Below, one piece after another: positions 12,807 to 55,400 of a stretch of 64,000 bases of DNA. The translations under genes were made by a program, and so were the position numbers. Origin of the DNA: Heliorestis convoluta (lineage in GTDB: Bacteria; Bacillota; Desulfitobacteriia; Heliobacteriales; Heliobacteriaceae); assembly GCF_009649955.1 (NCBI RefSeq), contig NZ_CP045875.1, forward strand, positions 2,151,501-2,215,500. The letters are read 5' to 3'. The notes under the pieces were generated by a model, which saw nothing but the letters and a program-made list of their open reading frames with translations, did not search any database and was not told the origin of the DNA. How positions within the stretch are numbered: the first letter of the stretch is position 1; each line of letters starts with the position of its first letter.

Positions 12807-12842
12807 TGTCACGTGTCACGGGGATGTTTCGTTTGCCACGCA

Positions 12843-13270
12843 ATTTTCATCTTTGGTTGTGCCCGACCGGGCATGGGGGGAGTACGAAAATAGCTACTCT
12901 GTGGTGGGGTCAGGCGTTATGATTTCCTTCCGAACGGACTCATCCCACGCCATGAGCGGCAGCAAGCTGCCGATGGCTGAGGTCTGAAGTCCTCTCTGCA
13001 GGAATTCATAACGCCTGACCCAGATACATCTTCTTGGTTGTGACTGAGTTTTGGCTTATTGCATTGCAAATACAATAGGCCGTTGCGTATATATAGTAGA
13101 AAGTTGCCCGAAGCAATGTCAACGGGAGTAACAATCAGCAAAAACCTTCTGGGACTGGGCATCACGCTTTCCGCAGCGGGACTTGGGACCTCAGCTGTCG
13201 CCAGCTTGCTGGCGGTAACAGCGTGGGACCAGTCCAGAGCGGAGGAAAGCGTGATGACCTGGCCCCTCTA
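12843..13270 (+). repeat. Structured dispersed element, copy 1 (A then B orientation)
   Basis: Module A (12907-13021) is a long hairpin bounded by GGGTCAGGCGTTATGA and its inverse; its 57-nt core is 12936-12992. Module B (13151-13266) is bounded by GGGACTGGGCATCACGC and a partly complementary arm; core 13179-13235. Between them sits a smaller hairpin around 13055-13079 (TATTGCATTGCAAATACAATA). The left side carries the end consensus: a GCCCGACCGGGC mini-hairpin, CATGGGGGG, AGTACG, AAAATAGCTAC. The usual right end after module B is missing here. Noncoding; it follows the hydrolase gene. Confidence 0.92.
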
Positions 13271-13314
13271 AAAGGTCACGCTATTATCCGTATAAAAAGG
13301 TTATAGAATTATGT

Positions 13315-13440: not shown

Positions 13441-15017
13441 ATGACAGAAAAGAAAGTTTGTCCTTTTTGTGGTGCTGAATTTACAGAAAATGACCAATGT
13501 CCCTTTTGCACGCATGGGAATGAGGTAGGTAATGATCAAGCTACAACGGAAAATGCAGGGGAAGATAGAAAGGAGGGCATAGAGGAAGCGACAGAAGCAC
13601 CTACAGAGAAAAAGGCAGCAGAGACAGCAAGTGAAGAGGCAACGGAGGAAGCACCTACAGAGAAAAAGGTAGCAGAGACAGCAAGTGAAGAGGTAACGGA
13701 GGAAGCACCTACAGAGAAAAGGTAGCAGAGACAGCAAGCGAAGTGGTAACGGAGGAAGCGCCTACAGAGAAAAAGGCAGCAGAGACAGTAGGCGAAGAGG
13801 TAACGGAGGAAGCACCTACAGAGAAAAAGGTAAAAGTGACAGCAACTGAAGAGGCAGTAACTGAAGAAGTAACTGAGAATTTGGCTGAAAGTAAAAGAGT
13901 GGAAAAAGCTGAATCAGAAGCGATAGCGTTGCAAGCACCGATTTCTTCATCTAATACGGAAGCGTCTGACACGGAATCGTCAAAAAGCATTTGGGAGAAA
14001 GTTTTTTTAGCGAACAAAGCGCTATTACCTCTCTTTGCTGTAGGCTTTATTATTGTTATTGCTGCGACCATTCTTCTATTTAACTATAACAATGAAAAAA
14101 AGAGAGAAGCTCTATACGTAAGCAATATAGAAAAAATTGCTACGGAGCATCGCTCTATCCAAAGCGCTTTTGCGACGATTTTGCAAGAAAGCCTACGAGA
14201 GCGTTCAAGGGGCATGACAGTTGAAATGCTCAATAGTCGCTTAGAAGGTGAGATGAACAGGATTCAGCAATTACAAGAAAGAACCGAGGCAGTAACGCCT
14301 CCAAAGAACTATCAAAGTTTTCACCAAAACATAAGGGAACTGTTAGAACTACAAAAAATTATTTTTCAAGATATCATAATGGTGCTTCAAAACCCTCTGA
14401 ATCAAGAAACAGATAGAATCATCGATCGACTTTATGGCACGATCATAGAGTCGAAAGAGCTCTCTAGCAATGTACAGCTTCCGTCCAACCAAAGGTTTCA
14501 TACTACTGATTTCGTCAGTATTACAAACCAGCTTGCTCTCTATGTGGAAGAAGAGCGGAAAATATACAAAGAAAAACTAGAAAAACTAGAAAAGAATCAG
14601 GCTTTTTTTGACCGTCTTGATGGGATCCAACAACGCTGGGATAGTGCAAAAACAGATCTAGAGCATGCACTGAACCTTTTCCGCGGTGGTGAAGTTCCTT
14701 GGTATGATTATTACGCTACCATAGAAGAAGCAAAAAGAGTTCGTCAATCCATTCGTGATGAGCTCAATGGTGTGCCAGCACCGGCGGGATTAGAAGAGTT
14801 AAAAACCCAACTAAACCGATTGCTTACTGATGCGGTTTACTATTGTGACCTTATGGAGAGGGCAGGAACTCTTTACCTTTATGGTGATTACGACTATAGC
14901 GAGCTACGTCGGCAAGAAGCGCAAGAATTGAACCAAAAGGTTCAAAAAAACTATGGAAATTACAAAAAGAACTATCAGATTCAAAAAGAAGTTATGACTA
15001 ACTTAAATAATTTGTAA
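13441..15017 (+). pseudogene. Zinc-ribbon membrane protein with 54-bp tandem repeats, frame broken at an A-run
   Basis: Two frames form one 525-residue protein if an A is restored at 13717-13720. Seen: an N-terminal zinc ribbon (CPFCGAEF ... CPFCTHG, residues 6-25); about five copies of an acidic 18-residue repeat, EEAPTEKKVAETASEEVT-like, encoded by 54-bp units from about 13588; one membrane segment (LLPLFAVGFIIVIAATILLF) near the middle; then a coiled-coil-rich extracytoplasmic region to the C terminus. The third repeat unit has AAAA where the others have AAAAA, giving an immediate TAG at 13723. Cytosolic zinc ribbon plus membrane anchor recalls YvbJ/TcaA-like wall-stress proteins, but no such domain was recognised. 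Function unknown. Confidence 0.75.
13588..13860 (+). repeat. Tandem 54-bp coding repeats (about five units)
   Basis: Units start GAAGCACCTACAGAGAAAAA and encode an 18-residue Glu/Thr/Ala/Lys-rich repeat. Units 1, 2 and 4 keep 54 bp; unit 3 is 53 bp; unit 5 diverges at its end. High identity suggests recent expansion by slippage or recombination. Confidence 0.9.
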
Positions 15018-22647: not shown

Positions 22648-23104
22648 ATGCCCGTCTGAGCACAACCAGTGATGAAAATCAGCTTTTCCTGATTACGTTG
22701 GGGTTACTTCGTGCAGGGGCCAGGTCATCACGCTTTCCTCCGCTCTGGACTGGTCCCACGCTGTTACCGCCAGCAAGCTGGCGACAGCTGAGGTCCCAAG
22801 TCCCGCTACGGAAAGCGTGATGCCCAGTCCCAGAAGGTTTTTGCTGATTGTTACTTTCCGTTGACATTGCTTTGCGCAACTTTCTGCGATGTATATGCAA
22901 CTGCTTATTGTTTTTGTATTTGCAATAGGCCAAAACTCAGTCACAACCAGCAAGATGTATCTGGGTCAGGCGTTATGACTTCCTGGAGAGAGGACTTCAG
23001 ACCTCAGCCATCGGCAGCTTGCTGCCGCTCATGGCGTGGGATGAGTCCGTTCGGAAGGAATTCATAACGACTGACCCTACCACAGGGTAGCTATTTGCGG
23101 ACTA
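22648..23104 (-). repeat. Structured dispersed element, copy 2 (reverse orientation)
   Basis: On the forward strand it reads right end, module B (22716-22831; core 22747-22803), linker hairpin near 22904-22929, module A (22963-23077; core 22992-23048), left end. The left end, read on the reverse strand, is CATGGGGTTAGTCCGCAAATAGCTAC, close to the ends of copies 1 and 5. The cores are identical to those of the other copies. It lies directly after the RND operon terminator. Confidence 0.92.
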
Positions 23105-41948: not shown

Positions 41949-42412
41949 CGTACACCCCCCCGTGCCCGGTTGGGCACAACCATTTGATGAAAATTAACTT
42001 CTCCTGATTACGTTGGGGTTACTTCGTGCAGGGGCCAGGTCATCACGCTTTCCTCCGCTCTGGACTGGTCCCACGCTGTTACCGCCAGCAAGCTGGCGAC
42101 AGCTGAGGTCCCAAGTCCCGCTGCGGAAAGCGTGATGCCCAGTCCCAGAGAATTTTTGCTGATTGTTACTTTCCGTTGACATTGCTTTGCGCAATTTTCT
42201 GCGATGTATATGCAACTGCTTATTGTATTTGCATTTGCAATAGGCCAAAACTCAGTCACAACCAGCAAAATGTACCTGGGTCAGGCGTTATGACTTCCTG
42301 GAGAGAGGACTTCAGACCTCAGCCATCGGCAGCTTGCTGCCGCTCATGGCGTGGGATGAGTCCGTTCGGAAGGAAGTCATAACGCCTGACCCCACCACAG
42401 GGTAGCTTTTTT
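41949..42412 (-). repeat. Structured dispersed element, copy 3 (reverse orientation)
   Basis: Forward strand order: right end with mini-hairpin GTGCCCGGTTGGGCAC, module B (42031-42146), linker hairpin near 42216-42244, module A (42278-42392), left end CCACCACAGGGTAGC. The mini-hairpin differs from that of copies 1 and 5 but remains self-complementary. Cores identical to the other copies. Right after the IseA-like lipoprotein gene. Confidence 0.92.
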
Positions 42413-49259: not shown

Positions 49260-49665
49260 CTGCTGACTTTTCCCGATTACGTTGGGGTAACTTTACAGAG
49301 GGGCCAGGTCATCACGCTTTCCTCCGCTCTGGACTGGTCCCACGCTGTTACCGCCAGCAAGCTGGCGACAGCTGAGGTCCCAAGTCCCGCTGCGGAAAGC
49401 GTGATGCCCTGGCCCAGAGGGTTTTTTGCTGATTGTTACTCTCGTTGGAAGAGCGTTGCGTAACTTCCTGCTATGCTTACGCAACTGCCTATTGTATTTG
49501 CAATAGGTCAATACGTAGTCACAACAAGCAAGATGTACCTGGGGCAGGCGTTTATCATTCCGTAGAGAGGACTTCAGACCTCAGCCATCGGCAGCTTGCT
49601 GCCGCTCATGGCGTGGGATGAGTCCGTTCGGAGGAATGATAAACGCCTGCCCCCACAGCAAACTT
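49260..49665 (-). repeat. Structured dispersed element, copy 4 (reverse orientation, most diverged)
   Basis: Module B (49300-49415) and module A (49541-49654) with linker hairpin near 49485-49507. Its outer stems differ from other copies but stay paired: module A uses GGGGCAGGCGTTTATCATTCC with an exact partner, and module B uses GGGCCAGG with CCTGGCCC. The two 57-nt cores are unchanged. Ends are shorter than in copies 1 and 5. Lies between the Gln-rich gene and potA, which are transcribed away from it. Confidence 0.92.
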
Positions 49666-53582: not shown

Positions 53583-54043
53583 TACAAAAATAGCTACTTT
53601 GTGGTGGGGGCAGGCGTTATGAATTCCTTCCGAACGGACTCATCCCACGCCATGAGCGGCAGCAAGCTGCCGATGGCTGAGGTCTGAAGTCCTCTCTCCA
53701 GGAAGTCATAACGCCTGCCCCAGGTACATCTTGCTGGTTGTGACTGAGTTTTGGCCTATTGCATTGCAAATACAATAGGTAGTTGCGGATAGAAGAAAGT
53801 TTCGCCAAGCTATTTCAACGGAAGTAACAATCAGCAAAAACCTTCTGGGACTGGGCATCACGCTTTCCGCAGCGGGACTTGGGACCTCAGCTGTCGCCAG
53901 CTTGCTGGCGGTAACAGCGTGGGACCAGTCCAGAGCGGAGGAAAGCGTGATGCCTAGTCCCCTCTATGAAGTAACCCCAATGTGATCAGGAAATATTGAT
54001 TTTCATCAGTGGTTGTGCCCGACCGGGCATGGGGGATTAGTAC
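53579..54043 (+). repeat. Structured dispersed element, copy 5 (A then B; best-preserved, bounded by TTAGTAC)
   Basis: Module A 53607-53721, linker hairpin 53755-53779 (CCTATTG...CAATAGG), module B 53847-53961, then GAAGTAACCCCAATGTGATC and right end with GCCCGACCGGGC and CATGGGGGATTAGTACG. TTAGTAC occurs at both edges (53579-53585 and 54037-54043). Inserted at, or forming, the potD stop codon. Confidence 0.93.
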
Positions 54044-55140: not shown

Positions 55141-55400
55141 CATGTGATACGAAAATAGCATAATCTTTCTGGGACAGGGCATCACGCTTTCCGGAGCGGG
55201 ACTTGGGACCTCAGCTGTCGCCAGCTTGCTGGCGGTAACAGCGTGGGACCAGTCCAGAGCGGAGGAAAGCGTGATGCCCAGGCCCCTGCACGAAGTAACC
55301 CCAACGTAATCAGGAAACGTTGATGTTCACCAAATAATTGTGCCCGTCGCCTGGCAATGCAATGGCACGGGAACACTTCGTTTAGCAGCTATATGCATCA
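55141..55400 (+). repeat. Structured dispersed element, copy 6 (deletion derivative, module B only)
   Basis: Left end CATGTGATACGAAAATAGC (55141-55159) is followed at once by the module B flank and module B (55171-55286; core 55199-55255). Module A and the linker are missing. The right flank GAAGTAACCCCAACGTAATCAGG is kept, followed by GTGCC...GGCAC near 55340-55368. Lies between ddh and the SLH gene, which share a strand. Confidence 0.88.

Follow-up and report, generated by a model that had tools for sequence, protein, structure and literature searches.

Bacterial MITEs are usually regarded as featureless relics of insertion sequences. Among other dispersed repeats, REPINs and BIMEs, which are mobilized by RAYT, have modules of about 20-40 nt, and the BOX, RUP, ERIC and Correia elements are known from narrow host groups. 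The latter are short, dispersed, intergenic stem-loop repeats, modular in build and open to nesting (PMC10969869). Insertion sequences of the IS1182 family target stem-loops, and duplication of the whole stem-loop has been proposed as a pathway (PMC5678879, PMC4923244).

In this study, we have analysed a stretch of 64,000 nucleotides of Heliorestis convoluta DNA (the window), in which inverted pairs of long hairpins, named A and B, belong to a repeat family that resembles each of these systems in part. The amplified unit recalls REPINs and BIMEs in being composed of two inverted palindromic modules, intergenic and of high copy number, but its modules are 115 nt long and have no cognate RAYT in the genome. 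It is a short, dispersed, modular stem-loop repeat that may be nested, as are the BOX, RUP, ERIC and Correia elements; unlike these, its core is common to 12 genomes from several Firmicute families and shows strong covariation. The imperfect hairpin with extrahelical bases and a variable stem is reminiscent of integron attC sites, although the Heliorestis element has neither an R-box pair nor a cassette array. There is also a likeness to IS1182-family MITEs of the IS1272 type: in three distant Firmicutes (G191, G449 and G163) the core lies in CAG...CTG palindromes beside terminator-like hairpins. IS1272, however, has been reported to delete or replace the stem-loop, whereas here the whole hairpin is duplicated, and the Heliorestis copies differ from IS1182-family MITEs in their ends, in having no IS1182 gene above the cut-off in the genome, and in that no palindromic duplication was found at them. 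We consider it fairly probable, judging from the sequences, that A and B are diverged, inverted copies of one hairpin module of ~82-115 nt, which would constitute the body of an intergenic mobile element, MITE-like and non-autonomous.

Paired hairpins in the window and across the genome

Module A (12907-13021, plus strand) is a near-perfect hairpin of 115 nt, consisting of an outer stem and the core, with a match of 130.5 bits to our covariance model R1 and a folding energy of -68.1 kcal/mol. Module B (13151-13265, minus strand) is inverted with respect to A, matches R1 with 118.2 bits at 13152-13264 and folds with -64.5 kcal/mol. Between them runs a spacer of 129 nt (13022-13150, plus strand) common to the doublets, and the 386-nt region has a fold z of -11.75. 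The unit extends into a left tail (12887-12906, plus strand; consensus CGAAAATAGCTACYNTGTGGTG), common to the copies and usually preceded by TARYA, and into a right tail (13266-13306, plus strand; consensus CTATGAAGTAACCCCAACGTAATCAGGAAAAG), which is degenerate in the window copy. Further to the left lies the mini-hairpin M (12844-12875, plus strand; TTTTCATCTTTGGTTGTGCCCGACCGGGCATG), of which the genome has 48 copies, nearly all adjoining A/B copies. M corresponds to a tandem-capable mini-hairpin unit of 54 bp (TTTTCATCnnnGGTTGTGCCCGACCGGGCATG...GGTTARYA), present here and at 47 other places of the genome, and a short REP-like repeat (GTGTCACGGGGACGTTTCGTTTGCCA) is nested between parts of M at ~12815-12843, as well as at two other loci (L012 and L026).

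The R1 covariance search located four more doublets in the window, three on the minus strand (22718-23077, with B at 22718-22830 and A at 22963-23077; 42033-42392, with B at 42033-42145 and A at 42278-42392; 49302-49653, with B at 49302-49414 and A at 49541-49653) and one on the plus strand (53607-53960, with A at 53607-53721 and B at 53848-53960), together with a solitary B module (55172-55284, minus strand) preceded by the left-tail motif TACGAAAATAGC. Elsewhere in the window there is a c-di-AMP riboswitch (RF00379; 63711-63850, plus strand; 93.5 bits), and two adjacent open reading frames (13441-13725 and 13743-15017), situated in a region of EAPTEKK repeats, have the appearance of a single frameshifted gene (13441-15017), the start of which resembles a zinc-ribbon protein.

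The 57-nt cores, A at 12936-12992 (plus strand) and B at 13179-13235 (minus strand), are identical in 39 of the 53 standard-length A copies and in 54 of the 55 standard-length B copies of the genome, respectively. A first-pass annotation of this DNA had reported 12 differences between them, forming five compensated pairs plus two bulge bases, and our recomputed alignment of core A with the reverse complement of core B is identical in every respect: 12 of 57 positions differ (6, 7, 16, 17, 19, 21, 24, 35, 39, 40, 50 and 51), the 10 stem differences make up the pairs 6/51, 7/50, 16/40, 17/39 and 24/35, and positions 19 and 21 fall inside a 3-nt bulge. Twelve changes placed at random would yield five complete pairs and two unpaired sites with a probability of 2.6e-6, even without demanding that pairing be kept. 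The strands TCCCAC and TGAGGTC, described by the same annotation as an unchanged internal loop, do lie outside the 12 differing positions, but they constitute a bulged helix, mostly paired, and not an open loop, with positions 9-12 paired with 43-47 and bulges at C13 and A45.

Within the 3,218,981-bp genome of Heliorestis convoluta HH (PMC7143216), the 381-bp A/B unit recurs with 91-94% identity among the best 40 places scored. The loci retrieved comprise 138 modules at 79 intergenic sites, namely 58 A/B doublets, all of them inverted, one triple and otherwise single modules, and the family occupies ~0.8% of the genome if 60 copies of 420 bp are assumed. The copies stand between convergent, divergent and co-directional genes, in every orientation and following no rule, and the open reading frames that overlap them are short ones inside the element itself. 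The 58 dispersed doublets are short, non-coding, multi-copy and intergenic, as MITEs are.

Variation among these copies is unevenly distributed. The mean minor-allele frequency is 0.014 in the cores, 0.089 (about six times the cores) in the spacer and 0.11-0.18 in the tails. Within the cores, when copies with length changes or more than six differences are excluded, the 44 paired sites show 5 changes and the 13 unpaired sites 16 (Fisher p = 3e-7). The first-pass annotation had named stem substitutions as frequent as those of the loops as the observation that would speak against its functional fold; the genome-wide copies go the other way, changes at unpaired core positions being about eleven times as frequent, per site, as at paired ones. 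Uncompensated exceptions do occur: 11 B copies and four A copies have one half of the tip replaced as a block, and three A copies carry a 5' variant. A-B chimeras and deletion products also occur.

The H. convoluta unit has CGAAAATAGC as its left tail, following TARYA, and finishes on the right with mini-hairpin M, which ends in TTARYA; its end motifs read CGAAAATAG and TTARYA. The search for terminal inverted repeats gave a weak, imperfect inversion near the feet of the hairpins, and that for target-site duplications gave a TARYA preference only. At one locus (L020; G000:3135137 and 3135906) a tandem duplication of 769 bp contains an entire A/B doublet, and a third copy of its left flank lies 13 kb away (L019; 3122877).

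Covariation of the core and pairing of the outer stem

The family is a dispersed multi-copy repeat with a covarying core and an outer stem that pairs despite sequence change. Among 18 heliobacterial cores from four genomes, 96.1% of the alignment cells are paired (86.9% in shuffled controls), 10 pairs show two-sided changes (5.4 shuffled) and the covariation is 0.323 (0.141 shuffled). With 30 cores from ten genomes, 98.3% of the cells are paired, against 22-54% in slid controls, 10 pairs again show two-sided changes (4.5 shuffled) and the covariation is 0.296 (0.113 shuffled). The covariation was matched by 0 of 500 shuffles in either set; the shuffles ignore relatedness, and by the tool's own trials the count of two-sided pairs is fairly robust to kinship. 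A plain double exchange is seen in G163/G197, where GGAC/GTCC becomes GGCG/CGCC. The fold proposed from the window is real and looks selected, with significant covariation in the cores of ten genomes. The view of the first-pass annotation that it is functional has good support, whereas the classes suggested there have none.

The outer arms pair with their own partners better than with the mean of the arms of other copies in 21 of 21 copies. In each of the 11 Heliorestis modules, self-pairing even equals or exceeds the best cross-pairing; this is not so in most Heliobacterium copies, because there the arms are alike and A/T-rich. Orthologous Heliobacterium copies compared with alifold give 12 compensatory and 0 broken pairs, a comparison that is biased because the fold was chosen on the very two sequences compared.

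The core in other heliobacteria and in distant Firmicutes

H. acidaminivorans (G001) carries solitary, intergenic hairpins with the H. convoluta core. Three of them have an identical 57-nt core and outer arms that have diverged yet are still self-complementary, and the flanks of the H. acidaminivorans copies showed no convincing palindromic target duplication when searched. Heliobacterium chlorum (G002) and a sister species (G006) each carry a set of five copies at orthologous sites. Of these 10 copies, eight stand directly after the 3' end of 23S rRNA, a ninth (L149) follows a truncated 23S, and at the remaining one (L140) the 23S is gone. Wherever the 23S is present the orientation to it is constant, the A strand being antisense to the rRNA, and paralogous operons that lack the hairpin represent empty versions of the corresponding spacer. 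The hairpin occupies the place after 23S and was considered as a divergent 5S rRNA, but we discarded this possibility, as paralogous operons without it exist and canonical 5S is present. As a separate observation, H. convoluta has eleven matches to the 23S 3' end, several of them partial to the Rfam model, and two canonical 5S genes only (L220, L221, L224, L225 and L226); the other heliobacteria look similar, and the imbalance could be due to split rRNA, masked stretches or pseudo-operons.

Beyond the heliobacterial copies, the covariance model gave no other match in 83 genomes of the class. Among 398 genomes of the phylum, eight further Firmicutes have the core, with from 1 to at least 11 matches each (the best 11 candidates per genome being scored). 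Matches to a loose pattern in genome contigs (72 stretches) and in viral contigs (10 in one scan and 1 in a second) appear to be due to chance, because, H. acidaminivorans and Heliobacterium chlorum excepted, none reached E = 1 with R1; the sole match of the second viral scan (L311) is without the fold. A search of the literature for the core sequence found no paper describing it.

In the distant Firmicutes the core is embedded in recognizable elements. In G191 and G449 it is the centre of palindromes of ~142 bp that start with CAGCTTGTAGACAAA and end with TTTGTCGACGGTCTG (clear CAG..CTG ends), and in G163 it likewise lies within a non-coding palindrome of ~142 bp with CAG...CTG ends. These MITEs adjoin palindromic terminator-like hairpins and, in G191 and G449, the hairpin is found on both sides. 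Of 37 end pairs tested, 19 show a long direct repeat, nearly always a whole stem-loop (for example ACCGGTGCGGTGACGCACCGGT and TCCCGCCGCCTGGCGGGA), and in several more, diverged repeats can be recognized by eye. Visual inspection of the flanks of two G163 copies gives the same picture. The target duplications measure 16-32 bp.

G411, a genome of the same genus as G449 that also has the core, contains two tandem 1.6-kb elements whose ends are nearly those of the MITEs. This insertion sequence is 1,610 bp long, each tandem copy is flanked by GAAGCACCATAAGGTGCTTC, and its transposase is intact (492 aa) in one copy and broken in the other. The intact protein scores 463 bits with the NCBIfam IS1182 model NF033551, for which the cut-off is 270. 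Thus the core resides inside ~142-bp MITEs with ends close to those of an IS1182-family element, and MITE and insertion sequence both duplicate whole hairpins. The ends of the G191 and G449 MITEs match those of the G411 element within a few differences, so that these copies share ends with an IS1182 element; the Heliorestis copies have other ends.

Two further observations were made in G191. A second type of MITE (L315:2044-2311 and L328:8664-8928) has the same IS1182-like ends and an unrelated interior of ~265 bp, which likewise folds into a hairpin of great length, at -108 to -113 kcal/mol. In addition, at least five MITE copies (L324-L327 and L330) have an insert of ~60 bp (GGTCAGGGGACACACC...GGAATGTCCCC) nested within their stem. 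Because the second type joins those ends to an unrelated interior, the core is not required by IS1182-type ends, and since CAG ends occur without the core, its conserved sequence needs another reason; a second transposase contact, a host protein or an RNA role are the candidates.

Proposed mobility and recognition of the folded module

A transposase acting in trans would mobilize the unit. Selection would act on pairing along the whole length because transposition would depend on extrusion of a cruciform or hairpin, or on binding of that form, and the core would then supply a sequence-specific contact. The A-spacer-B pair of H. convoluta may have been amplified together with the terminal mini-hairpin M, as one unit, by a putative transposase. 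A profile search with NF033551 found no IS1182 transposase above the cut-off in Heliorestis or Heliobacterium; in H. convoluta it gave a single match of 25 bits, to an unrelated transposase, and in G001 none. An IS4-like transposase near two copies (L337), considered on account of a weak match, showed no sign of the ends of the unit and was discarded.

The resemblance of inverted, intergenic, high-copy hairpin pairs to REPINs, together with the small hairpin M followed by TTARYA at one end of the H. convoluta unit and the same motif before its left end, might suggest a single-stranded site for a Y1 transposase of REP/REPIN or IS200-like type, in line with the HUH-type hairpin of the first-pass annotation. 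We regard this as improbable. The only Y1 transposase of the H. convoluta genome belongs to a tnpB-bearing IS605, the ends of which have no relation to those of the unit, and no cognate RAYT/Y1 was thereby found; in the distant relatives, moreover, the enzyme associated with the ends is an IS1182-family DDE transposase that leaves a long palindromic target duplication. To our knowledge, HUH elements make no such duplication. Nor did the hairpin foot contain, on either strand, the attC R-boxes RYYYAAC / GTTRRRY. The MITE ends near those of IS1182 and the palindrome duplications argue for the body of a mobile element, and not for a riboswitch, an attC or a REP site. Ordinary bidirectional terminators are a very improbable account: T-runs follow the stem by a few bases in some H. 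acidaminivorans copies, but most copies have none, they lie between co-directional, divergent and convergent genes alike, and no conserved core of 57 nt is required for termination.

Template switching within a quasi-palindrome, copying one arm to the other, could keep the pairing without functional selection, and the outer arms that vary widely while remaining complementary, as well as the block replacements at hairpin tips, are what such a mutational by-product would leave. It is nevertheless an unlikely origin of the whole pattern, as fixed bulges and asymmetric strands are kept and not repaired across ten genomes, the commonest H. convoluta A copies keep a mismatch beside the core (AATTCC vs GGAAGT), and the unpaired bulge sites are the most variable. 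A more serious competitor, which we still hold to be clearly less probable than the mobile-element body, is that the core acts as RNA, read-through from adjacent genes giving a hairpin that serves as a protein-binding site, a substrate of RNase III or a stabilizer of mRNA ends; selection for this role would preserve the pairing, mobility being secondary. A specific core sequence with bulges fixed across Firmicute families and an outer stem that varies is typical of protein-binding RNA; the Heliobacterium copies are probably transcribed, because most lie directly downstream of 23S rRNA, in constant orientation; and RNase III cuts other bacterial MITEs (PMC10969869). On the other hand, Rfam 15 has no relevant match for the element at the gathering score, and in Heliorestis both orientations relative to genes are found. 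The intergenic location of the copies, their occurrence in all orientations and the lack of a common or conserved neighbour gene argue against a cis-regulatory RNA. The core may still have a protein-binding role, either as RNA or in the form of extruded DNA.

All together, the A/B family is MITE-like and has a conserved core that covaries and is common to mobile elements with different ends across several Firmicute families. More tentatively, the ~82-nt core could be a Firmicutes-wide transferable module, recognized in its folded form (RNA or extruded DNA) by a putative conserved host or transposon protein and taken up by mobile elements that are unrelated and differ in their ends; if so, the copies in the Heliobacterium rRNA operons would be a domesticated version. 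The insertions that duplicate palindromes, among them two full-length tandem IS1182 elements, provide evidence, directly from sequence, for the pathway of stem-loop duplication, which had been drawn only as a possibility in the work on IS1272 (PMC5678879, PMC4923244). The sequence and fold of the core are kept across Firmicute families while the ends that a transposase would cut differ by host. What is cut can accordingly be separated from what is kept, and this makes recognition of folded DNA or RNA, in transposition or by the host, testable.
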